Source: a virus | Reading direction: 5' to 3' (one strand) | Length of the DNA: 21,001 bases | Virus record (IMG/VR): IMGVR_UViG_3300020385_000076 | Span: 1 to 21,001 of that record | Shown here: positions 2,263-20,139 of the stretch, in pieces | Numbering within the stretch: the first letter of the stretch is position 1 | Layout: every line of letters begins with the position of its first letter | Program-made: the position numbers and the translations under genes | Notes under the pieces: generated by a model | Database searches by the model: none | What the model was told of the DNA's origin: nothing | Seen by the model: the letters and a program-made list of their open reading frames with translations, nothing else

Positions 2263-2288
2263 TTTATTTATTTATTTTATTATACATA

Positions 2289-5093: not shown

Positions 5094-5780
5094 TTATAGT
5101 ACTGTTGCTTTTTGTCCTGTTTCAGCTTGGTTTATAGCAGAAGCTTCTTTATTAATTTTTACTAAAACAGTTGCCCTTGCTCCTGAATCCATACCTTCAA
5201 CTGTAATTACTGTTATTAATTGTGAATTAGTTCCAAATAATGAAACACCACTTAAAGTTACAAAGTTTAAAGTTTGAAGGTTAGATACTGTTTGGCTAAA
5301 TTTAACTGCTCCATTATATTGGTTTTGGGATGAATTTCCATCTCCACTTCCAAAACTTGAAAATAATCTAGCATCCATTGCAGTAAATATATACCCTGAT
5401 TCTGCTTGGCTATTGTTTCCGTTATAATTTAAAGTTTGTGGTGATATGGAACTTACACCATTTCTACCTAAAGTAATGGTTGAATTTGATATAGCAATTA
5501 TAGGAAGTTGTGTTGTACCTTGAGGTAAAGTAATTAATTTATGTTTCATTATATTATTACCATCAGGAAATGCTTCTAATATTGGCATATTTTCAATTGC
5601 TTCACCTGAATATTGTGAACCATTTGGGTGGTTTTCATTATATAATGAATAATCTATTTCATCATCACCTAATGCAAATTGTGTAATATTAAAAGAACCA
5701 TCATTTTTAGCTAATAATTCGCGACCTTTTTTGGTTAATATGGCGTCTACTGTAATTGAGCTGTTGTCTAAATATCCCAT
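5094..5780 (-). CDS. Unrecognised phage structural-type protein (228 aa)
   Basis: The 228-residue product has a distinctive N-terminus: MGYLDNSS, then VDAILTKKGRELLAKNDGSF (11-30), then ITQFALGDDEIDYSLYN. I believe this opening recurs in structural proteins of other large tailed phages, but I cannot name a family or function. The rest is rich in Ser, Asn, Gly and short strands, with no membrane segment or enzyme motif. The KKGRELLAK-FALGDDEIDY pattern loosely recalls the N-terminal region of P2-type tail fibre proteins that attaches to the baseplate; this is only a suggestion. The gene is preceded by a 49-bp gap, the largest in the window, that contains the 16-bp putative promoter element. 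It may therefore start a transcript for the distal structural genes down to the fibre. Confidence 0.55.
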   Translation of the reverse strand: MGYLDNSSITVDAILTKKGRELLAKNDGSFNITQFALGDDEIDYSLYNENHPNGSQYSGEAIENMPILEAFPDGNNIMKHKLITLPQGTTQLPIIAISNSTITLGRNGVSSISPQTLNYNGNNSQAESGYIFTAMDARLFSSFGSGDGNSSQNQYNGAVKFSQTVSNLQTLNFVTLSGVSLFGTNSQLITVITVEGMDSGARATVLVKINKEASAINQAETGQKATVL

Positions 5781-5790
5781 TGTAATTGTG

Positions 5791-5806
5791 TTTTGTTATA
5801 AATATA
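5791..5806 (-). promoter_or_regulatory. Putative late promoter element (16-mer, copy 1)
   Basis: On the minus strand this reads TATATTTATAACAAAA, ending 10 bp before the ATG of the 228-residue gene. The same 16 bases occur at 19362-19377, 7 bp before another start, and a one-base-longer variant lies at 15953-15969. It sits in the largest intergenic gap of the window. On the plus strand it contains TATAAATA, the T4 late promoter octamer, but facing away from the genes; as read with the genes it is TATTTATA. A transcript begun from it would have a very short leader. Recognition by the gp55-like factor is a guess. Confidence 0.5.
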
Positions 5807-5829
5807 TAATATTTTAAGAAATGTTTATT

Positions 5830-6483
5830 TTATTTTCCATATCCTGCTTTTAATAAAATTTTATTTAAATTAGCTTTTATAGTAGGATGTGTATGTTCTG
5901 GTATAAGTACAAATCCTTTATCACCTACTCCATTAGGTAATTCATTAGATATATCTAAATCTACAATTAAAGTTGGACTTTTTCTTAGTACAGATAATTG
6001 ATGACTAGAATAGGGATAAAAGTATGATGCAGAAACTGTTCTAGTTGCTGTTACTGTGTTAGACCCATCATATATTTCGTAATTATGTGTTGTTGGTTGG
6101 AATATAGATGAAGTTAAATCAGTCTGAAAAAATCTAGTACCTTTTAATTCTGTGGTTGTTATAAATCCATTATAATTTTGATTATTCCCCAAATGTTTTT
6201 CTTCTTCTTCTAAAAAAGTATCATATCGAGCTACATTTCTTGTAACACCTAAATTGAAGGTGTTTGAAGAACCTGTATTTGAATTTACGTGAGGGTAATC
6301 TATTTCCATTGTTCCAATAGATTCTTGTTTATTATTAGGAATACCACGTAAACCTTTTTCAAAGGTAACAAAAAATTTATTAGTATTTTTTGCTATTTCC
6401 CAATAAACTACATTATCATAAAATGATGTTAAACTACTTGTTAGTTGGGGATTTACTTCTTGTCCTTGTGTTGTAAATGCCAT
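5830..6483 (-). CDS. Unrecognised structural-type protein (217 aa)
   Basis: I do not recognise this 217-residue protein. It begins MAFTTQGQEVNPQLTSSLTS and reads as a compact soluble beta-rich protein: FYDNVVYWEIAK at ~22-33, FFVTFEKGLRGIP at ~37-49, SVLRKSPTLIVDLDIS at ~164-179 and a Lys-rich end (LNKILLKAGYGK). There are no membrane segments, coiled coils or enzyme motifs. It lies 3 bp after the stop-side neighbour boundary with the 271-residue gene and belongs to the same minus-strand run, so it is probably co-transcribed with, and incorporated near, the large baseplate protein. A peripheral baseplate role comparable to T4 gp8 to gp11 is conceivable by position only. Confidence 0.5.
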   Translation of the reverse strand: MAFTTQGQEVNPQLTSSLTSFYDNVVYWEIAKNTNKFFVTFEKGLRGIPNNKQESIGTMEIDYPHVNSNTGSSNTFNLGVTRNVARYDTFLEEEEKHLGNNQNYNGFITTTELKGTRFFQTDLTSSIFQPTTHNYEIYDGSNTVTATRTVSASYFYPYSSHQLSVLRKSPTLIVDLDISNELPNGVGDKGFVLIPEHTHPTIKANLNKILLKAGYGK

Positions 6484-6486
6484 AAT

Positions 6487-7302
6487 TTAAAGTTGTTTTA
6501 GGTTGATAGAAAAAGTTCCTGGATTAATAGATGGTGGGGTATCTGATGATGTTAATGGGTTTAATGATGTGATATTACCAATACTATTACCATATAGAGA
6601 TAATTCACTTGGAAATTCAGCTATAGTAGTAATTGTATTCTCCGTAAATAAACTAGCACTTCCAGATGCTGTTGTACCAAACCCAAACATACCTCCACCT
6701 GGAGCTGATCCTGATGCTATATTGTCAGTTAATATTCCTTTTTGGTCTCTTATTCCGTAACCACCAAATACTCCATCTTCATGTCCTTCAGTATTTGCAG
6801 TGTAAGCATATAACTTCATTAATAAACCTTGATTAAATTTAACATGATGGAATTCTTTTAACTGAGCAGCAGTTGCTATATCTAATATTTTAGTAACTAT
6901 TTTAGATCCTTCTGGAAAATTATCTGATATTAAACGTCTAAATGATTCTTTTTTTCCTTCAGTTTCATTAAATTGTTCAAATGATAATTTAGTTGATTCT
7001 AAAGTATCTAAATCAACTAAAAGGACTTCATTTATAGTTATATAACTATGATTTTTTATTTCAACTAATGGATCTAATGATCCTGTAGCTTCACCTTCCT
7101 GTATATTATTACCTATAAATAAAGCACATATTTTATTTTCTATAATAGGTTTAAGACCATAAGGGTATTGAGTATCTCCTTCGGTAAAATAATTAATTTG
7201 AGTTCCTGTTATTTTAGACCCTTCATAGCGAGGATTTTTCCACGAAGCCATATCTAAAAGACTATCATTAAATTCTATATCAAAACTTTTACTTACTGCC
7301 AT
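6487..7302 (-). CDS. Unrecognised structural-type protein (271 aa)
   Basis: This 271-residue protein is unfamiliar. The opening MAVSKSFDIEFNDSLLDMAS is followed by a region with regular strands: a KSFDIEF strand, ICALFIGNN at ~58-66, and YITINEVLLVDLDT at ~86-99. A helical stretch around 117-175 contains SFRRLISDNFPEGSKIVTKI and then FHHVKFNQGLLMKLYAYT. The C-terminal third is low-complexity, Gly/Ser/Thr-rich (ASGSAPGGGMFGFGTTASGS), typical of exposed or flexible virion segments. It is separated from the giant upstream gene by 10 bp and from the downstream gene by 3 bp. Assembly with that large protein is inferred from this tight linkage; nothing in the sequence shows an enzymatic role. Confidence 0.5.
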   Translation of the reverse strand: MAVSKSFDIEFNDSLLDMASWKNPRYEGSKITGTQINYFTEGDTQYPYGLKPIIENKICALFIGNNIQEGEATGSLDPLVEIKNHSYITINEVLLVDLDTLESTKLSFEQFNETEGKKESFRRLISDNFPEGSKIVTKILDIATAAQLKEFHHVKFNQGLLMKLYAYTANTEGHEDGVFGGYGIRDQKGILTDNIASGSAPGGGMFGFGTTASGSASLFTENTITTIAEFPSELSLYGNSIGNITSLNPLTSSDTPPSINPGTFSINLKQL

Positions 7303-7312
7303 TTTTAAGGAT

Positions 7313-10300
7313 TTAATTAATTATTCTATAATACCTACTAGATAATCTTGATTGATTTATATTTCCTTCAAAGTTTGAAGATCCAGCTAATTTATATGTT
7401 TCTTTAATGTTTATAGTAACGTTTGTTCCTTGTTCTTGTCTTTGTTCATTACTGCCCGTTGTTTGTAGTAGATTGTTTGTTACTATAACAGACGAACCAT
7501 TAAGAGAAAATGAATTATTAGGGTCCATTTCAAATTCAAATGTTTGGTATGAATTATTTAACATACTTTGACCCACACCTATTGTAGGTATTTCTCTTTT
7601 AAATTTGGTTCTTTCTAAATAATGGGGTTCAATTACTAAGCCCGTTTTTAAATTTGCTTTCATAGGAACCCACTGTTCTATTAGCTTAAATAATGTATGG
7701 TCAATGTATTGAATTGTTTTAATATAATCCCAATAATTGTATCTTCCTTTTACTTTTTTAAAATAAATGTCTTTTATAGTAGATAAATTTTCATATACAG
7801 GTGACGATTGAGCTGAGGGTAATGGTGACCCAATATAATCATCCAATCTGAATGAGCCTAATGTATATAGTATATCTTCATTTATTTCAGTTGTAGGGGA
7901 GAAAAATACTCCTAAATCTGGATAATCTAAAGGTTGACTATCTAATGTAGATGTTTCTGATTTTTGGGTTGTTTGTAACCAATTATCATCTACTATTCCT
8001 GTGTCTATTCTTACTTTTTCACTTGTCATTGAAATACCAACAGTGTCAGGGGTAGGTAAATGGTGGGTTTCTATTACTTCTTCCCACATTTGAGTAGTCA
8101 TACTACTTTCAACTTTTCCTAAATAATCTACATCTGGATTTGGATGGAAACTTCCGCTGTCTCTTTTATCATTACTTCCTAAAGGTAATCTTAAAACTAC
8201 ATTTGTGTAAGATGATGATGGTGTATTACCACTATACATAAAGGGTTCAAGAGCGTGTTTTTTAAGTGTCTCATGAGTAAGTAATTCACCAAAATGGTAT
8301 CTAACTTCTTGAAGTGAGCCTGAATAACGTAATCCATCTATACTATTATTTGCTATTCCTGAGGGTAAACCACCTATATAACAATGTGTAGCTCCTACTG
8401 ATTGTTTTATTATATTTGTATTAATACCATTATAAGGGGTAATTCCCCATGTATTTGTATGGGAAGCTTTTGAAAGTTCTTTATAATCTACTATATAAGA
8501 ATGTATATTTTTATTGTAATTTGATTGATATGCTCCAAATTTTAAGGATATAAAATCTCCTTTCTTTTTATTTACACCATCTACCCCTATAAATACATTC
8601 CAAAAATCACCATTAAATATAGGAAAGTATTCGGTTGATGTTGTTTGGGAATTATTATTTATACTAAATGTTATTCTACCATATTGACTAGCATCTCCTG
8701 ATGAGGATATATCATTACCTATGTATGGTTCTAATATTAAATGTTGATCATATTTAATCGGATATTTATATGAACCAGATAAAGACCATAAGTGGTAATT
8801 ATCGTTTGATCTATGGGGTTTAATTCTAAATTCAACTGTTTTTGCTTCTGAATTTAAATTTTTTGTTAAAGATGAAGACCAGTTAGTTTTTATAAAATAT
8901 CCTTCTGTACCTGAGTCACCATTAAAAGCTAATCCTGATTTTTCATAACTAAATGTTTGATATGTTGTTTTATCTGTGGTAGAACCTCCATACTCTTTGA
9001 CGTTAAGTATAGTAGATGGAACACCATAGCAACTCATGAGTGCTTTAAGACCACGTTCAGTACCTTTAGTTTTTAATAGATAAGGTGCATTATGGTATAA
9101 ACGTTTCCATATTTCTTTTGTGATATCTTCTTTGGGGATTGAACCCGCATTTGATGCAGTTACTAATGTTTGATTAGTAGGGGTGTCATAGAATATACTA
9201 CCTTCTGTACCTTCACCTAAAATATATTCAATTAAATTTGAATTCTCAAATTGATCAAAAGTTTCTAAACCTAAACTTTTTAAAGAAAAATAAACTAAAT
9301 CTTTAGATATACCTCTTGTATGATGAGAGTCTTTTGTTTCAGTAATATGTTTTATATGAGTCCATATTTGATCATAATGATGACCCATCATATTAACAAA
9401 TGTGGTATAAAATGAATTATCAGGATTTTCTAATATATGGTTAGGAATTAATCTTATTAAAGAATGTTCGTTTTGTCTGTCAAATAAATCTGCGTTTAAT
9501 AATTGTCCTCCATAATTAGGATAGCTGCTTCTTTCATCACCTAACCAAGTTTGAACTTGAGATGATGTAATAGAGTATAAAGTGTGAGGGGGTGAAATTG
9601 TAGATTTAGGCCAAGCTAAAGCTCCTGATTCATAATATAAAAATCTCTCATAACCATCTAATGCTTTAAGTAAATTTGTTTTTTTAGTTATAGTTGATTC
9701 TTTATCTTCTAAAACAAAAGTTGAAGCTGATGTAGGCCCTTCTATTAAATTTATTGTAGACAATCGAGTGTCGTATTGTTCTAATAGTTCAACCTTATAT
9801 TTAAAATTTTTAACACGTTCTAATGCACTACCAAAATGTACAAAATTTTCAAAATTATAAGTTGTTTCTTCAGGATTACCTTCAGCGTCACTTACAGGTG
9901 TTCTTATAAAATCATATTGAATTTCGGGAACCTCTCTATTTTCTAATTTATTTAGAAGATTTTGATAAGATGAAGTTAAACTATATTCTAAAACCTCATC
10001 ATAATTTTTATATCCTGAGGGTACACTATTATTTAATCTAACATCTATTTTAAAGTTAGGTCCTTTTAAAGGTATACTACCATCTATAAATTCAGGTAAA
10101 CCTAAATCTTGATCTATAATAATTTTATTAGTAATTTCTTCTACTATAGAAAAACTATCAAGTACAGAAACATTATTAGGTAAAGGTTCATTTAATTTTA
10201 TTAATAATTCATTGGTAGAAGGTATTTCATTAAATAATAAGTTAATACCAACAGCTGTTTTATCATTTCCAAAATTTAATATAAAATCTCTTAAAAATGG

Positions 10301-10720
10301 AGAATTACTAATTTCATTAATGTATTGTTGAGATGATTGTTTTAAATCTGTATTACTAATATTATTTGCTATGACCCTTAATTCTGTTCTTGTAGGTGAT
10401 ATAGCTTTAAGTGTAAATGTCTTTAAAGCTGTATTAAATATTTTTTTACGAAATATATTAAAACCTAATTTATATTTACCTGTTGTATAACCATTGTTAT
10501 TTAATAAAGAAACAGGATCAAAATTTAATTCATTAGGATTAGGTTGTGAATAATCTTGGAAGTCAGATATAGATGTTAAAATTTGATCATTTTGATTAAA
10601 GATATGGACTTCTATATGATCTTCAGGACGTCCAAATTTTCTATCAATAGTTTTAGAAACTACAGATTCTAAGGGTAGATCTATTCTTTGTTGTTGTCTT
10701 GTTTCTGCTCTAACTACCAT
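7313..10720 (-). CDS. Large baseplate/tail protein: P2 gpI-like region plus LamG-like domain
   Basis: At 1135 residues this is the largest gene and probably a wedge or peripheral baseplate component; T4 gp7 is similarly large, but I see no direct sequence proof of homology. Residues ~395-580 resemble the P2 gpI-type tail formation region: YDQIWTHIKHITETKD (449-464), EIWKRLYHNAPYLLKTKGT (536-554), GLKALMSCYGVPSTIL (557-572). The LLKTKGT..GL...YG pattern is the most telling part. Residues ~590-825 look like a LamG/concanavalin jelly roll (TVEFRIKPHR 628-637, WNVFIGVDG 707-715, CYIGGLPSG 780-788, YSGSLQEVRYHFGELL 799-814). Residues ~985-1042 hold a compact conserved-looking block ending IEPHYLERTKFKRE. 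The end is Asn/Gln/Ser-rich. The gene starts 3 bp after the 445-residue gene. The domain calls are by pattern and would need a profile search. Confidence 0.7.
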   Translation of the reverse strand: MVVRAETRQQQRIDLPLESVVSKTIDRKFGRPEDHIEVHIFNQNDQILTSISDFQDYSQPNPNELNFDPVSLLNNNGYTTGKYKLGFNIFRKKIFNTALKTFTLKAISPTRTELRVIANNISNTDLKQSSQQYINEISNSPFLRDFILNFGNDKTAVGINLLFNEIPSTNELLIKLNEPLPNNVSVLDSFSIVEEITNKIIIDQDLGLPEFIDGSIPLKGPNFKIDVRLNNSVPSGYKNYDEVLEYSLTSSYQNLLNKLENREVPEIQYDFIRTPVSDAEGNPEETTYNFENFVHFGSALERVKNFKYKVELLEQYDTRLSTINLIEGPTSASTFVLEDKESTITKKTNLLKALDGYERFLYYESGALAWPKSTISPPHTLYSITSSQVQTWLGDERSSYPNYGGQLLNADLFDRQNEHSLIRLIPNHILENPDNSFYTTFVNMMGHHYDQIWTHIKHITETKDSHHTRGISKDLVYFSLKSLGLETFDQFENSNLIEYILGEGTEGSIFYDTPTNQTLVTASNAGSIPKEDITKEIWKRLYHNAPYLLKTKGTERGLKALMSCYGVPSTILNVKEYGGSTTDKTTYQTFSYEKSGLAFNGDSGTEGYFIKTNWSSSLTKNLNSEAKTVEFRIKPHRSNDNYHLWSLSGSYKYPIKYDQHLILEPYIGNDISSSGDASQYGRITFSINNNSQTTSTEYFPIFNGDFWNVFIGVDGVNKKKGDFISLKFGAYQSNYNKNIHSYIVDYKELSKASHTNTWGITPYNGINTNIIKQSVGATHCYIGGLPSGIANNSIDGLRYSGSLQEVRYHFGELLTHETLKKHALEPFMYSGNTPSSSYTNVVLRLPLGSNDKRDSGSFHPNPDVDYLGKVESSMTTQMWEEVIETHHLPTPDTVGISMTSEKVRIDTGIVDDNWLQTTQKSETSTLDSQPLDYPDLGVFFSPTTEINEDILYTLGSFRLDDYIGSPLPSAQSSPVYENLSTIKDIYFKKVKGRYNYWDYIKTIQYIDHTLFKLIEQWVPMKANLKTGLVIEPHYLERTKFKREIPTIGVGQSMLNNSYQTFEFEMDPNNSFSLNGSSVIVTNNLLQTTGSNEQRQEQGTNVTINIKETYKLAGSSNFEGNINQSRLSSRYYRIIN

Positions 10721-10723
10721 ACT

Positions 10724-12061
10724 TTATGCATATATATATTTTCTAAATGTATATTGTCTATTACCTATTTTAAACTGTTGGTTTGAATCATCATTTTTAT
10801 GATAACTAAAATTTTGGAATCTATATGATTGAATTAATGCATACGTACTACCATATTGGTTTATTCCTTTTACCTCATACCTAACTTTAATTAATCCTTC
10901 ATCTAAAAGTTGATTAGCAGTTTTCCCATTATATTCTAAATTATTAAGATTTATTAAATAATCTTCTCCTTCTAAAACTCCTGGAAATAATTCTTTACCT
11001 TTGTCACCACTAGAAAATTTTCTTAATTCACTATCAAGAAGTGGATTAATTATTTGTGGATTTCCATTTTTATCTAATGATATCCCATCACCATTTGTTG
11101 TAGATTTTGGTAAAATTGATCCATCATTAAAATTAATATTAGGGAAATTTTCTCTTTTTTTCCATATTCGTGCTAATATAGCTAAAATTTGTCTTGATTT
11201 ATTTAATTTAGGTAATGCTATTTCATATAATTTTCTACCAACTTCTCTTTCTTCTTCTGTAAAACCATTTATGGAATCTTGATAATATTTCCAAGTTTGA
11301 GATTCAAGTGATCCCTCTCTAGAATATTCATTATTTATTTTATTTTTTAGCAAATTAATATATAATATTTCACTGCTCATAGATCCATCTTCTATAGGTT
11401 GAATTATATCATTTAATTCTTGTCTCCAATTATTTACTACAATTGAAGCTAAAATATTAGTTTGTTGTTCTAATTCTTCAGCTGCTGTTTGGCCCGTTAG
11501 GTCTCTTGATTCTAAAAGTGAACCTTCATCTATACTATCCAATATTACTTTAGGTACTACTTTTACTATATCTATATCAGAGGTGCCTGCTTTAAATCCT
11601 AATGAAGCTATTAGGGCTTTAAAAACAACACCCTTAGATCCCCCAGATACTAATCTTTTTTTCCCTTTATCCATATAATATACAGGTTCATCATCTGGAT
11701 TATTATTATTATTTACATCTGGAGCTATTAAAGTTCCATTAGAATAAAATGGATGTTCTTCTGTAGGAGTGGCTAATTCGTTTTCTAATTCAATGATTCT
11801 TTCTGTGAGAGTTGTAATTTGTTCATCTCTAGGATCAATGTAATTTTTAATGTAATCTGTACTTTGTTTTATAACTGAGGTGTGTGACTTTTCTCCTACT
11901 TTAGGAATATCATAAAATAATTCTTCATATATAGAAAAAAATCTATCAACATTTATAGGATCTTTTGATTTAAAAAATTCAGAAAAAGAACGATCTACTA
12001 AACCATCTGTTGATTTAGTACTATATATAATTTTTGTTAATTTTATATTTTCTTCCGCCAT
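10724..12061 (-). CDS. Unrecognised baseplate-region protein (445 aa)
   Basis: I do not recognise this 445-residue protein. The N-terminus contains FFSIYEELFYDIP (41-53) and a predicted coiled coil at ~76-98 (DEQITTLTERIIELENELA), followed by a short beta segment with PVYYMDKGKKRLVSGGSKG. The middle is helical and includes ILASIVVNNWRQELNDI and YEIALPKLNKSRQILAILAR. The end has aromatic strands (YALIQSYRFQNFSYHK, RQYTFRKYIY). There are no membrane segments. The first base of its ATG codon complement overlaps the stop of the DNRLRE-like gene by one base (TAATG), so translation is probably coupled. Because it lies between gp6 and the large gpI-like protein, a baseplate wedge or linker role is likely but unproven. 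Confidence 0.55.
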   Translation of the reverse strand: MAEENIKLTKIIYSTKSTDGLVDRSFSEFFKSKDPINVDRFFSIYEELFYDIPKVGEKSHTSVIKQSTDYIKNYIDPRDEQITTLTERIIELENELATPTEEHPFYSNGTLIAPDVNNNNNPDDEPVYYMDKGKKRLVSGGSKGVVFKALIASLGFKAGTSDIDIVKVVPKVILDSIDEGSLLESRDLTGQTAAEELEQQTNILASIVVNNWRQELNDIIQPIEDGSMSSEILYINLLKNKINNEYSREGSLESQTWKYYQDSINGFTEEEREVGRKLYEIALPKLNKSRQILAILARIWKKRENFPNINFNDGSILPKSTTNGDGISLDKNGNPQIINPLLDSELRKFSSGDKGKELFPGVLEGEDYLINLNNLEYNGKTANQLLDEGLIKVRYEVKGINQYGSTYALIQSYRFQNFSYHKNDDSNQQFKIGNRQYTFRKYIYA

Positions 12062-13194
12062 TATCTAACTACTTTAAAATGGTAATTATCATCATAAATT
12101 TGAGTACCATCATTATTTATATGTTTAAATAATATACGGTAGTATCTTTCTGGTTGTAAACCATTCATATATAGATTAAAATACATTCCATCATTATTTG
12201 CACTTAATTTAGTGTTATAATTATCAAATGGGATTACTACTTCTTCTGTGTGAGCATCTCTGATACTATAATATGATGATGTTGTAAAATATCCAGAATT
12301 TAAATAATTAGATGATGAAGTAAATTGACGTGTGGGGTATTTGTCTCTTACATGTAGTTTAATTTTAGCTACATCATTTTTATTATATTCTCTTTTATTA
12401 TTATATAAAGATACACTTAAATCACCTTCTAATTTAGCAGATGATTGTTTTTCATGTATACTATCATCCCATTTAAAAGTTAATTTTGGTGGATAAATTG
12501 TATGTGTATCAACTGAAAAATATTGTAAAGTACCATTACTGCTTGATACATTTTCCTCAATAGTGTCAGAATTTTTTAATATAAATCCATAATTAGGAAT
12601 ACCTGTGGGGTATGTTTGGGATGCATTTATACTTGCACTAAATTTTTGTACTATATTAGTAACATCTACATTTAAGTCTAATGAATCCGCATTTGAGAAT
12701 GTTTGGGTTCCTTTGAATAAACTACCTGTGTACCATTCTCCCCCTCCTTTTGTAATAGAAACTGTAGTACTTATAGATCCTGTAGATCCTACTCCAAAAC
12801 TTGAAGTTAGCCATTTAGTTTTAGAAGAATCATTATCTTTATATAACCAAGATGATCCATTTGATGATATAGGTAGATTTGAATATTTACCTGTTCCTTC
12901 ATTCCATGATGATGATAAAGGGAATACTTCTACTGACTGTTCAGCTGATAGATTTTTATGTTCTGCTGAAAATAATTCTAAACTAGAGGTAAAATTATTA
13001 GATTTAGCAATAGCTAATTGAATGTCAGAATTAGAAAATTGTAATAAAATTCTTGATGGGTAATACAAATTATTTGTAGATCCTTTTTCTTTAACAAGTT
13101 CAAGAATTTCATCATTACCTGTATTTAGATCAGATCTATTATGATGACTATATATAGTTGTGTCTTTTTCTGGAAATATCGAGTAATATGCCAT
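12061..13194 (-). CDS. DNRLRE-like structural protein in baseplate cluster
   Basis: This 377-residue protein resembles DNRLRE-type surface domains. It begins with AYYSIFPEKDTTIYSHHNRS, where D-T-T-I-Y is the typical opening strand, followed by an Asn/Gly-rich loop (LNTGND) and PSRILLQFSNSDIQ at about 46-59, the usual inward strand. Later come VDVTNIVQKFS and NYGFILKNS, which match the characteristic D-V-T and G-hydrophobic-L-K strands near the end of that domain. The C-terminal ~120 residues form further strands, ending YHFKVVR. There is no signal peptide, as expected for a phage virion part. It is adjacent to gp6 (1-bp gap) and overlaps the downstream gene, so a baseplate wedge or peripheral attachment role is inferred. 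The domain name is assigned by eye. Confidence 0.6.
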   Translation of the reverse strand: MAYYSIFPEKDTTIYSHHNRSDLNTGNDEILELVKEKGSTNNLYYPSRILLQFSNSDIQLAIAKSNNFTSSLELFSAEHKNLSAEQSVEVFPLSSSWNEGTGKYSNLPISSNGSSWLYKDNDSSKTKWLTSSFGVGSTGSISTTVSITKGGGEWYTGSLFKGTQTFSNADSLDLNVDVTNIVQKFSASINASQTYPTGIPNYGFILKNSDTIEENVSSSNGTLQYFSVDTHTIYPPKLTFKWDDSIHEKQSSAKLEGDLSVSLYNNKREYNKNDVAKIKLHVRDKYPTRQFTSSSNYLNSGYFTTSSYYSIRDAHTEEVVIPFDNYNTKLSANNDGMYFNLYMNGLQPERYYRILFKHINNDGTQIYDDNYHFKVVR

Positions 13195-13195
13195 T

Positions 13196-15106
13196 TTAAT
13201 ATGTTGTTACGCGTCCGTTAATATCTTGGTTTGGGTATTTTAATTCAAATATACTAGGATCCATTGAGGGATAAATTACACCTTTTCTTGTAGCTCCTAC
13301 AAAATCGTATTTATATTGTGAGTATCCTAAAGAAAGGCCATTTTTATTTTCTAATGTTACTTTTTCAACCGTTTGTACACCAGTAATACCCGCTAATAAA
13401 TTAGATATCTCAGATATAATAATAGGTTGGTTAACTTGCCATTTATCTATCAAAAAATAATTTTTTAATTCAGATATACAATCTAATATAACGTTTTCAT
13501 TATTATAATTTTTAAATGCAGTAATTTCAAAATCTAATTTAAAGTTAATTATAAATGCATCTTTAATATTAATTGCGTCTGTTAGCATTCTATATTGTTC
13601 TAAATAAGTAGCTAAATTAGTTTTAGTAGCTTGATTTAAAGTAGATAAATGTTTATTTTGATTATATCCTAAAGTATATAAATTTAATGCTAGTGGATTA
13701 GGTATATTATTAGATTCTGTTGATAATATAGATGTTTGGTCATCTTGTGTTATATAGGCCTTAGCTATCCTACCAAATTTAGAAGGTAACGATAATGTTC
13801 TTATAATATAATCATCTTTTGTAACTGTTCTTTGTTGAGCCGAAAAATTAGCCATTGCATTTAATCTAATGTCTTCTATAGAATCTCCTGCTCCCCCTCC
13901 TGTAGCTGATTCTGGATTATTAGACGTAACAGATGATTTTATATAATTTAATAAATTATTATTTAAATTAGGTTTGTTAATGGAAATTAAAGTGTCAATT
14001 TCAGTAATTGTATTAGACTGAACATTAGATTCTAAACCACCCCCCACAATATAGGTTATAGTTAAAGTTGTATTGGCAGGTGCTTGACCATAAGTTTTTG
14101 TAAATAAGAAATTAGAAGGGTCATATGCTTTATCTAATGCTGATCTTCCATCATTTATCCCTAAACCTATATTATCTGGATTAGGAATAATTTCTTCATC
14201 TGCTTTGTCGCTTGTACCAGCACCAAATTGAATTTCTAATTGATTATTGGTTTTAAATCGAGATATGAAACGTCTTGTTGATTTTTTTAACTTTAAAAGA
14301 AAAGGTGTTTGATTATTATATTGTTTTAATACAGGATCATTTGCTCCTGTGTTTTCAATTTCTTCAAAAATTGTATCTTGTGCTAAATATGGAACTTCAG
14401 ACCAATTATTACCTTCACTATCTACTACTGATTCAATTGATATAATATTATTGTCAAATAATTCTAATGTTTTAAATTTTTCAGCAGATCCTATAGTAAA
14501 TGTTTGTGATTTAGTTTCACCCGAAATTGCTTTAGCTGATTTTTTTAATAGATAATATGCAGGATTATTATTACTATCATAAGAATATACAGAAATATTA
14601 GTAGGATCTAAACCAGTTCCGTCATTTGAAGAGGATACATTAAAATTAACTTGATTACTTAAATAAAATTTGGGACCCTCGGTTGAATTAAAAACTGAAT
14701 TGGGTGAAATTTTTAAAGTATAATCAAAATCAGGTATATAATTATTAGGACCTATTTCTTTTGAGGGGACTAACTGAAATATCTCTAAATTAACATTAGA
14801 AGCGGCTGTTACTCGGGGTTTGTAACCCATAGCATATGCCATATTATATAAATTTTCTTTTTCTTGAGCTAAAGTTAAAAATGTTTCACGTAATTGAGTA
14901 TCAGTATAAAATGATAAAACATCACCAACATAAGCAGCCATTTCAAGAAACATCATTCCTGGGTTACCTTCGCTAAAATCATTAAAATTATCAGGGAAAT
15001 ATACTTCCGCAAATTCCATTAATTGATTTTTATAAGAATTAAAATCCTTATTAAGGTATTTTACATCTTTATCTTGTGTTTTATTTGATACTTTACTATA
15101 GGCCAT
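13196..15106 (-). CDS. 6: Baseplate wedge protein gp6 (baseplate J-like)
   Basis: This 636-residue protein matches the T4 gp6 / P2 gpJ family that forms the inner wedge ring of the baseplate and drives the sheath-contraction signal. The N-terminal signature is clear: FNDFSEGNPGMMFLEMAAYV at 41-60, DVLSFYTDTQLRETFL at 62-77, then LYNMAYAMGYKPR at 86-98. The second conserved block is at 411-433 (EDIRLNAMANFSAQQRTVTK then DDY), the usual R-x-V-T-x-D-D-Y turn of the family. A C-terminal region includes ILDCISELKNYF and the LLAGITGVQTVEKV segment. The length agrees with T4 gp6 (about 660). It follows gp25 after a 12-bp gap, and gp25 and gp6 partner in the wedge, which supports both assignments. 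The symbol is by T4 analogy. Confidence 0.92.
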   Translation of the reverse strand: MAYSKVSNKTQDKDVKYLNKDFNSYKNQLMEFAEVYFPDNFNDFSEGNPGMMFLEMAAYVGDVLSFYTDTQLRETFLTLAQEKENLYNMAYAMGYKPRVTAASNVNLEIFQLVPSKEIGPNNYIPDFDYTLKISPNSVFNSTEGPKFYLSNQVNFNVSSSNDGTGLDPTNISVYSYDSNNNPAYYLLKKSAKAISGETKSQTFTIGSAEKFKTLELFDNNIISIESVVDSEGNNWSEVPYLAQDTIFEEIENTGANDPVLKQYNNQTPFLLKLKKSTRRFISRFKTNNQLEIQFGAGTSDKADEEIIPNPDNIGLGINDGRSALDKAYDPSNFLFTKTYGQAPANTTLTITYIVGGGLESNVQSNTITEIDTLISINKPNLNNNLLNYIKSSVTSNNPESATGGGAGDSIEDIRLNAMANFSAQQRTVTKDDYIIRTLSLPSKFGRIAKAYITQDDQTSILSTESNNIPNPLALNLYTLGYNQNKHLSTLNQATKTNLATYLEQYRMLTDAINIKDAFIINFKLDFEITAFKNYNNENVILDCISELKNYFLIDKWQVNQPIIISEISNLLAGITGVQTVEKVTLENKNGLSLGYSQYKYDFVGATRKGVIYPSMDPSIFELKYPNQDINGRVTTY

Positions 15107-15118
15107 TTTTATATATTA

Positions 15119-15553
15119 TTAACCATTTCCACGAGGGAAGTATGATGAGTTAAAGTTTAATTGAATGGCATCTGATGATCCATCTAAATTAAAACTATAT
15201 GATATTACTATAAATAACTTATATTCATCTTCTATAGAATTTACATCTACACTCGATAAAGATATTGTAGGTATGTAAAATTCTATTTGAGTGTTGATTT
15301 TTTCTTTTAAAATTTCTACATCTAAATTAGGTTCAAATAATAGATTTTTTAATCCTACACCAAAATTTGGTTCATTTACACGTTCACCAGGTTCAGTTAA
15401 TAATAAATTAATTAAATTACTTTTAACTTGTTCTTTAAGTGTTTGTGTGCCTTTAAACATATTAACGTTATCTAGAGGAAAGGCAACCCCAATAGTGACA
15501 TTTTTATTAATGTCTAATGGACTTATTCTTCTATTTCCGTTAACATATGCCAT
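15119..15553 (-). CDS. 25: Baseplate wedge protein gp25
   Basis: At 144 residues this matches the gp25/GPW family of small baseplate wedge proteins, which form the core wedge with gp6 and help nucleate sheath assembly. The family core is visible at 50-74: LLLTEPGERVNEPNFGVGL followed by NLLFE. The EPGER...FG.GL pattern, with the conserved glutamate-proline pair, is the hallmark. A short N-terminal arm (SPLDINKNVTIGVAFPLD) precedes it, and a C-terminal pair of strands (YKLFIVISYSF) follows. T4 gp25 has 132 residues, so this is full length. The ATG overlaps the stop of the upstream 129-residue gene by one base (TAATG), a coupled arrangement, and gp6 follows 12 bp downstream. I see no lysozyme activity features. 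Confidence 0.93.
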   Translation of the reverse strand: MAYVNGNRRISPLDINKNVTIGVAFPLDNVNMFKGTQTLKEQVKSNLINLLLTEPGERVNEPNFGVGLKNLLFEPNLDVEILKEKINTQIEFYIPTISLSSVDVNSIEDEYKLFIVISYSFNLDGSSDAIQLNFNSSYFPRGNG

Positions 15554-15942
15554 TATGGTCTACTATTTTTCTTTTTATCTATAGCCCTCATTAATTCGCG
15601 GTAATCTTTATTTACTACATTAGCTACTGCCGTAGGCATTGGGGCTTCTGGAGTTAATGTTGATTCAAGATTTGTATTTCCTTGAGCAGTTTCGTTAAGT
15701 AAATCATTTAGGGCTCCATTAGATGTAAAACTTTGAGCTATAGGTTTACCCATAATTTTCTCTTTTAAAGAAGTTTGTACATTTTGGGGTATAGGAGTAC
15801 GTTGTACTTGATGTTCTACAATTGTAGGTTTTAATTCATCACGTAAGTCTTCCTTAAGTGTTTTAATTTCACGTCGAAGAGCATAGTCAATTTCTTCTCT
15901 TACGACTTTTCTGATTAATTTTTCGAAAACTGTTGCTTTCAT
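15553..15942 (-). CDS. Small helical protein of unknown function
   Basis: The 129-residue product is unrecognised. Residues 1-39 form one long charged helix (MKATVFEKLIRKVVREEIDY, then LRREIKTLKEDLRDELK), probably a coiled coil. The middle (about 45-95) is Pro/Thr/Gln-rich and likely disordered. The end has a second charged helix, KDYRELMRAIDKKKNSRP. This plan would fit a small adaptor, chaperone or minor virion protein, but no family can be named. Its stop overlaps the gp25 start by one base, so the two are probably translated together. The 33-bp gap before it contains a variant of the 16-bp putative promoter element, which would place it at the head of a gp25-gp6 transcript. Confidence 0.55.
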   Translation of the reverse strand: MKATVFEKLIRKVVREEIDYALRREIKTLKEDLRDELKPTIVEHQVQRTPIPQNVQTSLKEKIMGKPIAQSFTSNGALNDLLNETAQGNTNLESTLTPEAPMPTAVANVVNKDYRELMRAIDKKKNSRP

Positions 15943-15952
15943 ATTAAATAAT

Positions 15953-15969
15953 GTTTGTTAATAAATATA
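15953..15969 (-). promoter_or_regulatory. Variant of putative late promoter element
   Basis: On the minus strand this reads TATATTTATTAACAAAC. It matches the 16-mer of 5791-5806 and 19362-19377 except for one inserted T and the last base. It ends 10 bp before the ATG of the 129-residue gene and lies in one of the few gaps of more than 30 bp. Position and similarity support a regulatory role; the indel makes this copy less certain. Confidence 0.4.
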
Positions 15970-15975
15970 ATTAAA

Positions 15976-16806
15976 TTAAGCAATTCGATAACGAATTACT
16001 TGGAAATTTGCATTTCGTATTCTTTCTATTGTTTTTGGTAATAAATCATCTTCTATAAGAGTAATATCAGCTTCATCAGGTGCGTCATTTATAGCATCAG
16101 CATAATCTTCATCTTCCATAGAATCTCCTTCCACATCACACATTAGAATATATTTTAAATAATATGATTCAATTAAACCTATTATTGTTGAAATAAGTGA
16201 TTTTATAAAAGTTATAGTTCCTATAGCTAATTGTATTATTCCTATTGGAATTGATGCCGCAATTGATATTTTTTCAATTTTTTTTGTAAAAACTTTAGTT
16301 GAATTTTTTATTTCTTCTATTTTAGATTTTGATTTAGCTTTTAACTCTGCAAGTTTAACTGTAATATCTCCATCTGCTAAAGGTCCTTTTAATACAAGTA
16401 TAGCTATTTGTGCAGAAATTATTACTGTCTGTAAGGTGCTTACTAAAGTTTTTAAGACTAATATAATTGATTCAATGATAACAAGATATCCTGCTATTTT
16501 TGCTAATTGTTCTTGTAGTTTTTTAAGTTTTTCATTTGATTGATCAAGTATAAATTGTAATTTAACAGATTTAGATTTTAATTTATTATATATAGAATCA
16601 ATACGATTTCTTACTTCTATACTACAAATTAATTCAGGACCTTTGGATGATATTTCATCTATCATCATTTGTTTAACTGATTCTTTAGTAGGTATTTTTT
16701 GTTTAACTTCAGCTATTTTTTTATTAGCTTCTGCTTTTATTTTAGGACCCATAGCATCTAAAATTTGTTGACTTTGTTGGATTAATGTTACTATGACTCT
16801 TGACAT
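15976..16806 (-). CDS. Hydrophobic helical protein within baseplate cluster
   Basis: This 276-residue protein is unrecognised. Charged helices at ~22-103 (such as KIKAEANKKIAEVKQKI and EKLKKLQEQLAKI) lead into a hydrophobic stretch at 106-139 (YLVIIESIILVLKTLV, then TVIISAQIAILVL). A short charged linker at 155-178 precedes a second hydrophobic stretch at 180-222 (ISIAASIPIGIIQLAIGTIT, then ISTIIGLIESYYLKYILM). An acidic segment (MEDEDYADAINDAPDEAD) and a short tail follow. The pattern suggests four membrane-crossing or amphipathic helices. It lies directly after the hub and spike genes (1-bp gap) and before the wedge genes. An ejected pore-forming or tape-measure-tip protein that helps DNA cross the inner membrane would suit the location, but holin or a hydrophobic structural core are alternatives. 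No function is shown. Confidence 0.6.
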   Translation of the reverse strand: MSRVIVTLIQQSQQILDAMGPKIKAEANKKIAEVKQKIPTKESVKQMMIDEISSKGPELICSIEVRNRIDSIYNKLKSKSVKLQFILDQSNEKLKKLQEQLAKIAGYLVIIESIILVLKTLVSTLQTVIISAQIAILVLKGPLADGDITVKLAELKAKSKSKIEEIKNSTKVFTKKIEKISIAASIPIGIIQLAIGTITFIKSLISTIIGLIESYYLKYILMCDVEGDSMEDEDYADAINDAPDEADITLIEDDLLPKTIERIRNANFQVIRYRIA

Positions 16807-16807
16807 G

Positions 16808-17290
16808 TTATATTGTTTTAACTTGGTTACTTAAATTTTCTTTAAATTTATTTTTTAAGACACTTAATTTATCTATACGTCTTTGTAAAGGAATGATGTT
16901 AGTAGCATTGGGAGTTGTGGGTCCTGCGGGAGGTGCTATATATGATATTTCATTTCCTATCATATCTAATATATCTTCTAAAACATCTAATAATCCTTCT
17001 GTTAGATCATCTCCAATCATCCATTCTTGAAATTTATGCCCTAATAAAACAGGTTCAGTAGGTAGATCACCTTCTTTTAAACCTAAATAGATATTAGGGG
17101 AATTTACTACAAATTTACTATCTTGTTTATCACTTGTATCAAAATGGAAACTACCATTTGTACTAAAACCAATAGCTTTATCTGAAAATAATAAAATAGA
17201 GTCGTCTTTAGCATTAAATATTAGACGGTCTGAATCTATTATTACTTGTTTTCCTTGATATATGTTAGGGGTATCTGGTATATAACTCAT
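16808..17290 (-). CDS. Putative baseplate spike protein (separate gp5 C-terminal-like)
   Basis: The 160-residue protein looks like a central spike or needle. Residues ~12-75 contain short alternating strands typical of an intertwined beta-helix: KQVIIDSDRLIFNAKDDSIL, LFSDKAIGFSTNGSFHFDTS, KFVVNSPNIYLG. They are followed by TEPVLLGHKFQEWM at about 78-91 and a helical segment (LLDVLEDILDMI). The strand pattern plus the EPVLLG step and terminal helix is common to the spike parts of T4 gp5 and P2 gpV-type proteins. Its ATG overlaps the stop of the amidase-bearing hub gene by one base (TAATG), which fits two proteins made together. In T4 the OB, lysozyme and beta-helix parts are in one gene, gp5; here the spike appears to be separate. 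The assignment rests on pattern and neighbourhood only. Confidence 0.6.
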   Translation of the reverse strand: MSYIPDTPNIYQGKQVIIDSDRLIFNAKDDSILLFSDKAIGFSTNGSFHFDTSDKQDSKFVVNSPNIYLGLKEGDLPTEPVLLGHKFQEWMIGDDLTEGLLDVLEDILDMIGNEISYIAPPAGPTTPNATNIIPLQRRIDKLSVLKNKFKENLSNQVKTI

Positions 17291-19002
17291 TATATTGTTA
17301 ATTTAGCTACTTTTTTATGGTTATTATACTTTTCTTTACTTAAATTCATTCCACTTGGGATTCTTTGATCAATATTATTAAATGGAATTCCTAATTCTTT
17401 ACAATATTTACGAACATCAAACCAAGGACAACTTTTAGCTGCGATTTGATTATGACCCACTATTTGAATATCAGGATATCTAATTTGGTATAATTTAACT
17501 AATTCATTTAAACTATTAGCTTGTTTTTTAGACATATTAAATATACCCGCCCCTCCTATCCAACTTATATTAAGAGTATTATTATTGCTTATATCTGTAC
17601 TTTTATTAAGGCCCTTTGATGGTTGACCTACACCATATGATTTTTCACTGTCGAGATATATTTTAACACAATCACCATTTTGATCTATAGTTATATGATA
17701 TCCATGTCTCCTCCATCCATTATTATTATCAGCTGATTGCATAAAATAATATGCTACATCTAAATGAGTAGCACTTGTAGCCATAGCTGTAGTATGAATT
17801 ACTAGATATTTTACTCTAGAAGATTCTGATTCATTATTTATTCTATTAGTAAATGTAGTAATAGGTTCAGGTGTGTGTAATGTAACCGAAAATGATGAAT
17901 CCCTAAATGATGGTATAAGAGTATTATAAGATGTATTTTCTACATTAATGGTTGTACCTGTACTTTCATCTATATCTTCGCCTGTTTCTTCTGTTCCTGA
18001 TATATCTAATATTTCCATTATTCCTATTCCATCTAAAATTTCTTCTGCGTAATCCCCAAATGGATCATCTGAGTTTTCGGTAGATGGAGTAGGTGGTGGG
18101 GGTAAAGTTTGAGGAGTTATTTCAAATGATTCATTAATTTCATCTAAATCCTCAGTAATTTGTTCTGTTTGGGTAATTTTAGTTTCAGGAGTTATGTAAT
18201 CTCCAGTTAATTGTTCCTGTATAGTGGGTTCTATAACTAAATTGGCTCCAAATGATTTTTGGTTTAATGAAGCAGGAACAAAATTAGATAGTTGTTGATT
18301 TGATGTCATATAAATTGAAGATGCATCACCCATTACATCTTCTTTAGCATGAATCCAACCTTTATCGTCTAATTGATTTGATTGGCCATTTCTTATAATA
18401 GTAATGGGATCACCCAACTTACCTATATTACTCCATTCATTAGGAGTGCCTACTTTATCACTTATATTAGTAGAACCAAATCTTATAGAATTACCAAATC
18501 TACCTTCTATAATAGTATCACCTTCATAAGGTAATAATGGTTTTATATTTAATTTTTCTTGAAAGTATTTACCTAAATTAATACCTGTTGATCCATCTTC
18601 TACTTGCCTTGCAATACTCTGTTCATAATCATTAGATGAACCATTATTAAAATCTTCTATGTAGGGTAAAGCATTATGGTGAGGGTGGTTCCATATGTTT
18701 ACTATGGGGAAATAATATGTTGATATTTTATTATCTTTATCACCTGATGACATTATTAAAACTACTTCATTTATTAAAGGATAATTTTTTACAAATGAAA
18801 ATAAAGGTTTTGCTGTAGAATCAGTAGATGGATTTGATTGATTTAATGTTGTATAAAATATAGTACCTATTGAATCATATTGTCCATAATCTTCAAAACG
18901 ATCATGTGAAGGGTCTAAAATAATATCAGTAATTCTGACAGCTATTAATTTAGTGTCAGAAGGTAATATTTGGAATTGGTTATCTACTCTAACTACAGCC
19001 AT
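17290..19002 (-). CDS. Baseplate hub protein with C-terminal T7-lysozyme-type amidase
   Basis: This 570-residue protein is the likely tail-associated cell-wall hydrolase. Residues ~1-110 form a beta-rich domain (LIAVRITDIILDP at 19-31, VVLIMSSGD 80-88, YYFPIVNIWNHPHHNA 96-111) that I take as the hub end. Residues ~260-360 are an acidic, Pro/Thr/Glu-rich linker (PQTLPPPPTPSTEN at 297-310). Residues ~397-545 are an N-acetylmuramoyl-L-alanine amidase of the amidase_2 family, which cuts the bond between MurNAc and L-Ala. Zinc ligands H403, H517 and C525, plus K523 and GYH at 434-436, match T7 lysozyme H17, H122, C130, K128 and Y46; the spacing H-6-K-2-C is the same. In T4 gp5 the equivalent place holds a lysozyme. 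The gene is followed by the spike gene with a one-base overlap. The domain is complete, so activity is expected. Confidence 0.86.
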   Translation of the reverse strand: MAVVRVDNQFQILPSDTKLIAVRITDIILDPSHDRFEDYGQYDSIGTIFYTTLNQSNPSTDSTAKPLFSFVKNYPLINEVVLIMSSGDKDNKISTYYFPIVNIWNHPHHNALPYIEDFNNGSSNDYEQSIARQVEDGSTGINLGKYFQEKLNIKPLLPYEGDTIIEGRFGNSIRFGSTNISDKVGTPNEWSNIGKLGDPITIIRNGQSNQLDDKGWIHAKEDVMGDASSIYMTSNQQLSNFVPASLNQKSFGANLVIEPTIQEQLTGDYITPETKITQTEQITEDLDEINESFEITPQTLPPPPTPSTENSDDPFGDYAEEILDGIGIMEILDISGTEETGEDIDESTGTTINVENTSYNTLIPSFRDSSFSVTLHTPEPITTFTNRINNESESSRVKYLVIHTTAMATSATHLDVAYYFMQSADNNNGWRRHGYHITIDQNGDCVKIYLDSEKSYGVGQPSKGLNKSTDISNNNTLNISWIGGAGIFNMSKKQANSLNELVKLYQIRYPDIQIVGHNQIAAKSCPWFDVRKYCKELGIPFNNIDQRIPSGMNLSKEKYNNHKKVAKLTI

Positions 19003-19003
19003 C

Positions 19004-19354
19004 TTATTTTTTTACTTCTTTTCCTTTTTCTGTTTCTTCTATGATATTTTGAAGTTGATTCATTTCTTCTTCAGTTAACATATCTCCACTTCCACCAGTT
19101 ACATTTCCTGTAGATAAGCGTTGTACAATAGCCGCCATCTTTAGTAGATGATCATCATTCTTAACACTAATTTCCATATATTCTTTAATTAATGGAACAA
19201 CAACAGTAGCGTCTCCTAAATTTTGGATGAGAGGTCTTAATTCAGCTATAAGCTGACCAATTTGTTTACCTTTTTTTTTCTGATTAGTGTGAATTTCTTT
19301 AAGAAGATCAGAAAATGTTTTATCGTCAAATATTACTTGGCCTAATGGATCCAT
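19004..19354 (-). CDS. Small helical protein of unknown function (116 aa)
   Basis: The 116-residue product is unrecognised. It is nearly all helix: FSDLLKEIHTNQKKKGKQIG (14-33), QLIAELRPLIQNL, VVPLIKEYMEISVKNDDHLL, a MAAIVQRL segment, then a Gly/Ser turn (GNVTGGSGD) and an acidic helix (EEEMNQLQNIIEETEKGKE). No membrane segments or signature residues are seen. It lies 1 bp before the amidase-bearing hub gene, and its leader holds the 16-bp putative promoter element. It may therefore head the hub transcript and could be a hub assembly factor or minor virion protein, comparable in place to T4 gp26 or gp51; this is not supported by sequence. Confidence 0.5.
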   Translation of the reverse strand: MDPLGQVIFDDKTFSDLLKEIHTNQKKKGKQIGQLIAELRPLIQNLGDATVVVPLIKEYMEISVKNDDHLLKMAAIVQRLSTGNVTGGSGDMLTEEEMNQLQNIIEETEKGKEVKK

Positions 19355-19361
19355 ATTTTTA

Positions 19362-19377
19362 TTTTGTTATAAATATA
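19362..19377 (-). promoter_or_regulatory. Putative late promoter element (16-mer, copy 2)
   Basis: The minus strand reads TATATTTATAACAAAA, identical in all 16 bases to 5791-5806. It ends 7 bp before the ATG of the 116-residue gene, in the gap immediately after the late sigma factor gene. This would make it the first late promoter for the hub genes if the gp55-like factor uses it. Confidence 0.5.
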
Positions 19378-19383
19378 GATTTT

Positions 19384-20139
19384 TTAAATTTTTACATATC
19401 CCGTTTTATCATATTCATTATATAATTCACGATATTTCTTCTTAAGTACTTTAGTTACTTTAGTTATTACGGGAGTATCTACATTTGTTATTTCACGAAT
19501 ATAAATATAAAGTGCTTTTTTATTAAAAATTTCTAAATTTTCTCTACGTTTAAATAATATATTAACAGCATCACATACTTTTCTATCTTGATCTTTTTTA
19601 AATAATCTAAACATATGTTTATCAATATATTCAGTAAAATAATCAATAAAATCTTTCATATCTTGTTTACGATCGGGACGTCCAAGTTCGTGGATAACTT
19701 TATCGTCTTCATCAGCTGCTAATACATCTGTGGTGATTTTTTTCTTTTTATAATTTGTATTATTATAAAGAATAAGGTAATTTTTACCTACAATACTAAA
19801 GTAAGAAAAGGCCTTTGAACCTTTAGTTGGATCGAAATAATGAAGTTTTTCTAAAAGAAAACAAACAACTTCATGTTTTAGATCTTCTAAATCATCTACT
19901 TCTGTATAATAAAATTTAAATGTATGAATAAGATTTTCAGCTAATTTATAAAATGAATAATTTATACGTTCGTTAAATATTTTATTTCTAGTTGCTTCAT
20001 TATTAGAAGCTAAATATTCACCTATAGCTAATTCAGTATCATGTGTGAAGTACATTCTTGTACTTTTTCTACCTCTTTTTTTCTTCTTCGGAGTAGGAGA
20101 ACCGACATTTGTCGGTTCTTTTTTTTCTGTTTTGCTCAT
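19384..20139 (-). CDS. 55: Late-transcription sigma factor, gp55-like
   Basis: The 251-residue protein contains a sigma region-2-like core of the T4 gp55 family, which directs host RNA polymerase to late promoters with sliding-clamp help. The core lies at about 83-128: LEDLKHEVVCFLLEKLHYFD, PTKGSKAFSYFSIVGKNYLI, LYNN. The FDP.KG..AF.YF..V..N pattern is the usual promoter-opening helix. Residues 1-28 are a Lys-rich tail with KKKKRGRKS at 18-26, and residues ~129-235 are basic and helical. It is longer than T4 gp55 (about 185). I do not see a clear clamp-binding hydrophobic tail; the end is YDKTGYVKI. The ATG is 3 bp after the stop of the small membrane protein. A perfect hairpin lies in codons 7-14. 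It precedes the late genes it would switch on. Confidence 0.87.
   Translation of the reverse strand: MSKTEKKEPTNVGSPTPKKKKRGRKSTRMYFTHDTELAIGEYLASNNEATRNKIFNERINYSFYKLAENLIHTFKFYYTEVDDLEDLKHEVVCFLLEKLHYFDPTKGSKAFSYFSIVGKNYLILYNNTNYKKKKITTDVLAADEDDKVIHELGRPDRKQDMKDFIDYFTEYIDKHMFRLFKKDQDRKVCDAVNILFKRRENLEIFNKKALYIYIREITNVDTPVITKVTKVLKKKYRELYNEYDKTGYVKI
20098..20126 (+). terminator. Terminator-like hairpin inside late sigma factor gene
   Basis: The plus strand has a perfect 9-bp inverted repeat (AGAACCGAC at 20098-20106, loop ATTT, GTCGGTTCT at 20111-20119) followed by eight Ts (20119-20126). This is a textbook intrinsic terminator for transcription on the plus strand, antisense to the gene. 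In the minus-strand mRNA the same sequence forms a hairpin about 20 nt after the A of the start codon, preceded by an A-run, and could affect early translation. It encodes K-E-P-T-N-V-G-S of the protein. It is unusually GC-rich for this window. Confidence 0.6.

Follow-up and report, generated by a model that had tools for sequence, protein, structure and literature searches.

The short elements that head three gene clusters in the viral DNA studied here are, with high probability, late promoters of a T4-like phage lineage that apparently infects Bacteroidota. The window, a complete virus record of 21,001 bp with 28% GC, corresponds to a T4-like tail and baseplate region, and its minus strand carries all the major genes. 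Among their products are wedge proteins similar to gp25 and gp6, a protein with an amidase domain, a tail fibre and a gp55-like sigma factor. The putative promoter would consist of a single extended -10-like box (A-12 T-11 A-10 T-9 T-8 T-7 A-6 T-5) without a -35 element, with A or T usual at -4, and transcription would start on A+1. In the proposed mechanism, the host RNA polymerase together with the phage gp55-like sigma factor (19384-20139) would melt the box once early genes have been expressed and would then transcribe, in the direction of their genes, the clusters for baseplate, tail, head and packaging, giving mRNAs with leaders of 10-20 nt (10-14 nt in the window), or with none in several lineages. 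The motif, its strand, its position at cluster heads, its preference for virion genes, the A at +1 and the limit on its spacing are computed directly from the genomes, as described below.

An initial annotation of this DNA had pointed to the 16-mer TATATTTATAACAAAA, which indeed occurs exactly on the minus (gene) strand at 5791-5806 and 19362-19377, and to a variant, TATATTTATTAACAAAC, found on the same strand at 15953-15969. The distances from the elements to the ATGs at 5780, 19354 and 15942 are 10, 7 and 10 nt, respectively, and the gaps in which they lie, of 49, 29 and 33 nt, are the three largest. Each element heads one gene cluster, much as first described. The T4 late octamer TATAAATA, reported on the plus strand of the elements, is present there at 5797-5804 and 19368-19375, but the third site reads AATAAATA; the caution that this octamer alone does not discriminate was well placed, with 13 copies in the window against 11.7 expected. 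What did not hold is the idea of the full 16-mer as the specific unit: it is the 8-bp core ATATTTAT that is conserved instead, while the AACAAAA tail varies. When three mismatches are allowed, the 16-mer is found 8 times in the window versus 6.3 expected, which is at chance level, and a random sequence of the window's composition yields about 0.8 repeated 16-mers per 21 kb, so that the repeated 16-mer is weak evidence by itself. The core occurs five times on the gene strand of the window, where all three non-coding copies, in only 210 bases of non-coding sequence searched, are the three sites, and three times on the plus strand, always within coding sequence. The convincing statistics for the motif come from the relatives, not from the window alone, and they support a functional unit that would be made of ATATTTAT plus an A five bases later.

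We propose that three late units start at 19364, 15956 and 5793, with a weaker candidate at 2277, all on the minus strand. The core of promoter 1 (19369-19376, positions -12 to -5) would direct a start at the A at 19364 and a leader of 10 nt (19364-19355) before the first gene of unit 1 (19004-19354, 116 aa), which is followed by 17290-19002 (amidase domain), 16808-17290 and 15976-16806. Promoter 2, with its core at 15961-15968, has a predicted +1 at the A at 15956 and a predicted leader of 14 nt (15956-15943); its unit opens with 15553-15942 (129 aa) and continues through the gp25-like gene 15119-15553 and the gp6-like gene 13196-15106, on to 5830. For promoter 3 (core at 5798-5805), the predicted start is the A at 5793 and the predicted leader spans 13 nt (5793-5781), upstream of 5094-5780 (228 aa), 4029-5066, 2289-4016 and possibly the tail-fibre gene 154-2262. 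This last gene is preceded by the unproven candidate fourth site ATATGTAT (2282-2289, minus strand, one mismatch, predicted +1 at 2277), which overlaps a loose 16-mer match at 2275-2290 and is judged from the window only, orthologs of the tail-fibre gene being absent from the fetched loci.

Other features of these regions are a 10-bp hairpin at 15978-16001, which lies at the end of gene 15976-16806 and, read along the minus strand, immediately precedes promoter 2, with a sequence kept in some, not all, relatives, and several repeats in the tail-fibre gene (repeat region 1082-1964): CCTCAGGTAATATAAGTT occurs four times, at 1566, 1635, 1704 and 1947, with a 69-bp spacing for three of them, and a 41-bp repeat lies at 1082 and 1412.

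Two scans of viral contigs provided about 160 related loci, among many more that exist. In 1,613 distinct upstream regions, of which the last 40 nt were counted, ATATTTAT is the most over-represented 8-mer upstream of genes (274 occurrences versus 7.7 expected), and its reverse complement appears only 21 times; it is also the top 8-mer in six larger genomes plus the window. In a ranking among all permutations of A3T5, the core reaches 157, where the median is 12. All the genomes examined show an enrichment of TATTTAT/ATATTTA, which is weak in the small set from G001, and the T4 sense motif ATAAATA stays at or near expectation in most of them, with about a 2-3-fold excess in G001 and G003. Before orthologs of the three genes that head the clusters, the core hardly changes even where protein identity falls to about 35%; its flanks vary. 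Around 100 diverged contigs keep it before head-gene orthologs: about 80 contigs before those of 19004-19354, about 90 before those of 15553-15942, and 13 of the 14 listed before those of 5094-5780. Orthologs of genes inside these clusters have no such box in front of them, even in a case where a gap of 27 nt is available.

The core heads clusters, before their first genes, and is almost absent before tightly packed genes. In seven large genomes, it was found at only 2 of 525 starts with gaps below 10 nt versus about 90 of 225 (roughly 40%) with gaps of 25-59 nt. The enrichment upstream of late genes that had been suggested as a check was borne out when run on the core in the relatives: with gaps of at least 15 nt, it is present at 47/70 virion or packaging genes but at only 4/21 replication or metabolism genes (P=1e-4), and with smaller gaps at 1/62 and 0/16, respectively. 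Terminase, portal, tail tube, hub, tape measure, PhoH and head-completion genes are all preceded by the core in several genomes; it was not seen before SSB, RecA, helicase or GroEL genes in the large genomes examined. The exact core is missing at about one third of the virion genes that have a gap, gp23 among them. One of the four replication/metabolism sites is a DNA polymerase gene, which shows an extra upstream element.

A second signature is found at the predicted start site, which was assigned from sequence alone by placing ATATTTAT at -12 to -5 as in the T4 geometry. Among sites with a spacer of at least 14 nt, 101 of 118 (86%) have an A at the predicted +1 (P=4e-12 against the local A content); the A content further downstream is 56%. 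In the pooled sites G is nearly absent at -1, and the 147 of them hold no -35 information and no enrichment of TTG, so that at the level of sequence the box lies about one turn before +1 without a -35 element, as in T4-type late promoters, where the box is at -13/-6. Counted over whole genomes, start codons rarely fall upstream of the predicted +1, with 3 sites at spacers 0-3 versus 18 at spacers 4-5 (P=1e-6), and spacers of 6-13 are depleted with respect to both 4-5 and 14-21. In 11 gene families of the relatives the ATG stands exactly at the predicted +1 (spacer 4), which implies leaderless late mRNAs there: for some messages of the relatives, the first nucleotide would probably be that of the gene itself. 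In the family of the window gene 15553-15942, 27 sequences are leaderless and 65 have leaders, with similar N-termini. The very short leaders foreseen by the initial annotation hold for the window, with 13, 14 and 10 nt predicted for promoters 3, 2 and 1, but the predicted length falls to zero in several lineages of relatives. An intrinsic terminator lies directly upstream in 13 of 129 motif gaps versus 9 of 270 other gaps (P=0.009). In a T4 control, the distance from TATAAATA to the start was 13-29 nt, apart from a single outlying copy at 52.

Two arrangements of these sites are worth recording. At L033, L039, L041-L043 and L045, promoter 1 lies inside or overlaps the 3′ end of the gp55-like gene, and the next ATG is at the predicted +1. 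In G002 (155603) and G004 (98212), a leaderless gene (MACHYLYL.../MACHCLHL...) comes directly after a sequence resembling a tRNA 3′ end, with the motif between them.

The best candidate reader of the motif would be the adjacent gp55-like sigma factor (19384-20139, minus strand), composed of a region 2 and a C-terminal helical domain. Its product matches the late sigma family PHROG 234 (E=5e-4), a weak match with which the hhalign comparison to T4 gp55, Sigma70_r2 and the fold search agree. The Pfam model Sigma70_r2 recognizes 20 of 41 family members at E<=0.1, with the window protein below the curated cut-off, and a Foldseek search with the modelled fold (mean pLDDT 75) returned mostly sigma factors among its top matches (best E 0.08), none of them strong. 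The phmmer and profile searches of the sigma factor against PDB chains did not recover gp55. The family is 232-264 aa long versus 157-185 aa in the T4, cyanophage, Aeromonas and Stenotrophomonas gp55 compared, and in its C-terminal third it has a conserved helical domain (FNKKALYIYIREIT..TP.ITKV.K.LK) which is missing from T4, cyanophage and Aeromonas gp55 and may be a region-4-like or clamp-contacting part. The first reading of the window had advanced a late-promoter class with very short leaders, perhaps served by the gp55-like factor; the comparative evidence favours this proposal, and we infer from it that RNA starts at these sites, late in the cycle, with the gp55-like protein as their reader.

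Pockets of T4 gp55 hold A-12, A-9 and A-8, with Y97 stacking on A-12 and T99 contacting A-8 (PMC7892883). As the hhalign match to T4 gp55 is weak (E 0.09), the comparison of these residues rests mainly on a MAFFT alignment, with the T4 gp55 sequence taken from NC_000866. The equivalent of Y97, in the A-12 pocket, is invariant in 41/41 relatives. The position of T99, a threonine in T4, cyanophage and Aeromonas, is occupied by serine, glycine or glutamine in most of the family, and that of R57 by threonine. Relative to T4, A-12 is retained in the motif, and it is precisely at -9 and -8 that A is replaced by T, a pattern that would fit a shift in the specificity of the sigma factor; the residue comparison is at most suggestive of such a change. 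There are exceptions: the G006 lineage uses ATATTTAT although its residue at T99 is still T, and R57 is retained as R in Mel-JY01.

In phage T4, gp55, acting together with gp33 and the gp45 clamp, reads the late promoter TATAAATA. Such promoters lack a -35 element and consist of one TATA box, located roughly a helical turn before the start (PMC2988020). The sites described here are alike in having a single 8-bp -10-like box before virion genes, about one helical turn from the start and with no -35; A-12, T-11, A-10, T-7 and A-6 are common to both, and the tyrosine of the A-12 pocket is kept in the gp55-like sigma. They differ in T-9 T-8 for A-9 A-8, in the conservation of T-5 and in a free T-13, as well as in promoters that are often nearer to the start codon and, by prediction, sometimes leaderless. 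Since on the gene strand the sites read TATATTTA and not the defining octamer TATAAATA, they are classed as a variant form of T4-type late promoters. The protein machinery differs too: the sigma factor has its extra C-terminal domain, and the Pfam models for gp45 and gp33 (PF02916, PF09116 and PF16805), which find their targets in T4, detected none in six relatives, where diverged versions could escape them, so that activation may not follow the T4 route. The marine cyanophage motif NATAAATA (S-PM2 and relatives) is likewise a T4-type late motif from another T4-like lineage, with a relaxed -13; however, A-9 A-8 are kept there, and the three cyanophage gp55 checked have threonine at T99.

The main rival explanation is that the primary sigma factor of the host, and not the phage one, reads the sites, ATATTTAT being in that case a variant form of TAnnTTTG, the -7 box of Bacteroidota. 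The flavobacterial sigma-A box lies at -12 to -5 (PMC9723704), in agreement with the position found here, at nearly the same distance from +1, and TATATTTA, through its TATATTT, fits TAnnTTT. We nevertheless consider this reading unlikely, because the terminal G of the box is an A at every site used and in almost every ortholog row, the -33 TTG element is not enriched in the pooled set, the motif is strongly concentrated before virion genes, and, in the window as in related loci, a sigma-like phage gene adjoins the first promoter. The host reading does gain from seven G003 sites with GTCAAAA/GGCAAAA upstream of the box, the sole annotated gene among them being a DNA polymerase; this subset suggests that a similar box is used with another, host-type sigma and a second element. 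A scan for E. coli-type promoters returned a chance number (141 versus 141 expected).

Other readings fare worse. An RNA-level element, such as a processing site or a translation signal, would agree with an AU-rich motif close to start codons, and translation in Bacteroidota is described as independent of Shine-Dalgarno sequences and tuned by the bases near the start codon (PMC6847099). This possibility is nonetheless quite improbable: the motif is missing before internal genes of the same clusters, its spacing ranges from 4 to more than 30 nt, the A signature appears at the T4 start position, and the 13 motifs after intrinsic terminators are hard to reconcile with it, as the upstream RNA should end first. 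Still less credible is a set of T4-type late promoters, TATAAATA, oriented against the genes and producing antisense RNA. The opposite strand does read (T/A)ATAAATA at most sites, but no start-site peak is seen at the would-be antisense +1 (gene-strand -17) and the position of the motif tracks the sense start codons; with a start-site signature in the gene direction only, this candidate was rejected and the plus-strand octamer regarded as incidental. Chance similarity in AT-rich gaps could be entertained for a window of 28% GC in which loose 16-mer matches are not enriched, but its probability becomes negligible in the light of the relatives, where conservation, 8-mer enrichment and the rank among A3T5 permutations refute it.

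Beyond the late promoters themselves, we hold as a tentative possibility that T4-like phages of Bacteroidota have a late-transcription system without the T4-type sliding-clamp co-activator, in which a gp55-like sigma factor with an added C-terminal domain would read ATATTTAT, its -9/-8 specificity shifted toward the host -7 box, and would yield leaderless or nearly leaderless late mRNAs. By analogy with the T4 box, which resembles TATAAT, the late box of these phages may have drifted toward that of their own host. In the open-access literature, nothing relevant came up on the motif, on the phage immuto or on leaderless T4-type late genes. A late-promoter code for these abundant, little-studied marine and freshwater T4-like phages would make late units readable from sequence. 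It would also offer a natural test of specificity change in a phage sigma factor, where two adjacent bases gripped by T4 gp55 are swapped and the motif now resembles the box of the presumed host's own sigma. The prediction of leaderless late mRNAs also concerns a gene family whose members in sister lineages have leaders, in hosts that make no use of Shine-Dalgarno signals.

The annotated relatives are Flavobacterium phage immuto, an isolate with a Flavobacterium host, and Microcystis phage Mel-JY01; genome-bin matches include Winogradskyella, Flavobacteriales and Bacteroidetes, and also unrelated bins. Together they make Bacteroidota hosts likely, not proven. Immuto encodes a gp55 homolog at 78174-78872 and has ATATTTAT ahead of, among others, 90688, 128591, 130599 and 149201. 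Mel-JY01 (PP395634.1, L201-L204), listed as a Microcystis phage, has the same gp55-like sigma and a TATTTAT signal; either this system is not confined to Bacteroidota or the assigned host should be verified.

Elements of other kinds were also observed in these genomes. G003 (L186-L193) shows a second promoter type, with GTCAAAA/GGCAAAA about 10 nt upstream of TATATTTAT, before 1888, 3646, 7515, 7745, 11707, 97275 and 109617; these sites mostly precede small genes of no known function and the DNA polymerase, and are possibly early, host-read promoters. A G signal at -29 in the pooled logo comes mainly from a subset of G003 sites with GTCAAAA. In L051, L055, L048, L067 and their relatives, a repeated upstream element, (C/A)(G/A)TATATTCACGTTATAAAATTAA, is found before genes and is perhaps an early promoter class. 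In immuto (L164-L167), non-coding TTTAGGTAT(C) is strongly enriched upstream, with 16 copies of TTTAGGT versus 0.9 expected, and is possibly the early promoter of this phage.
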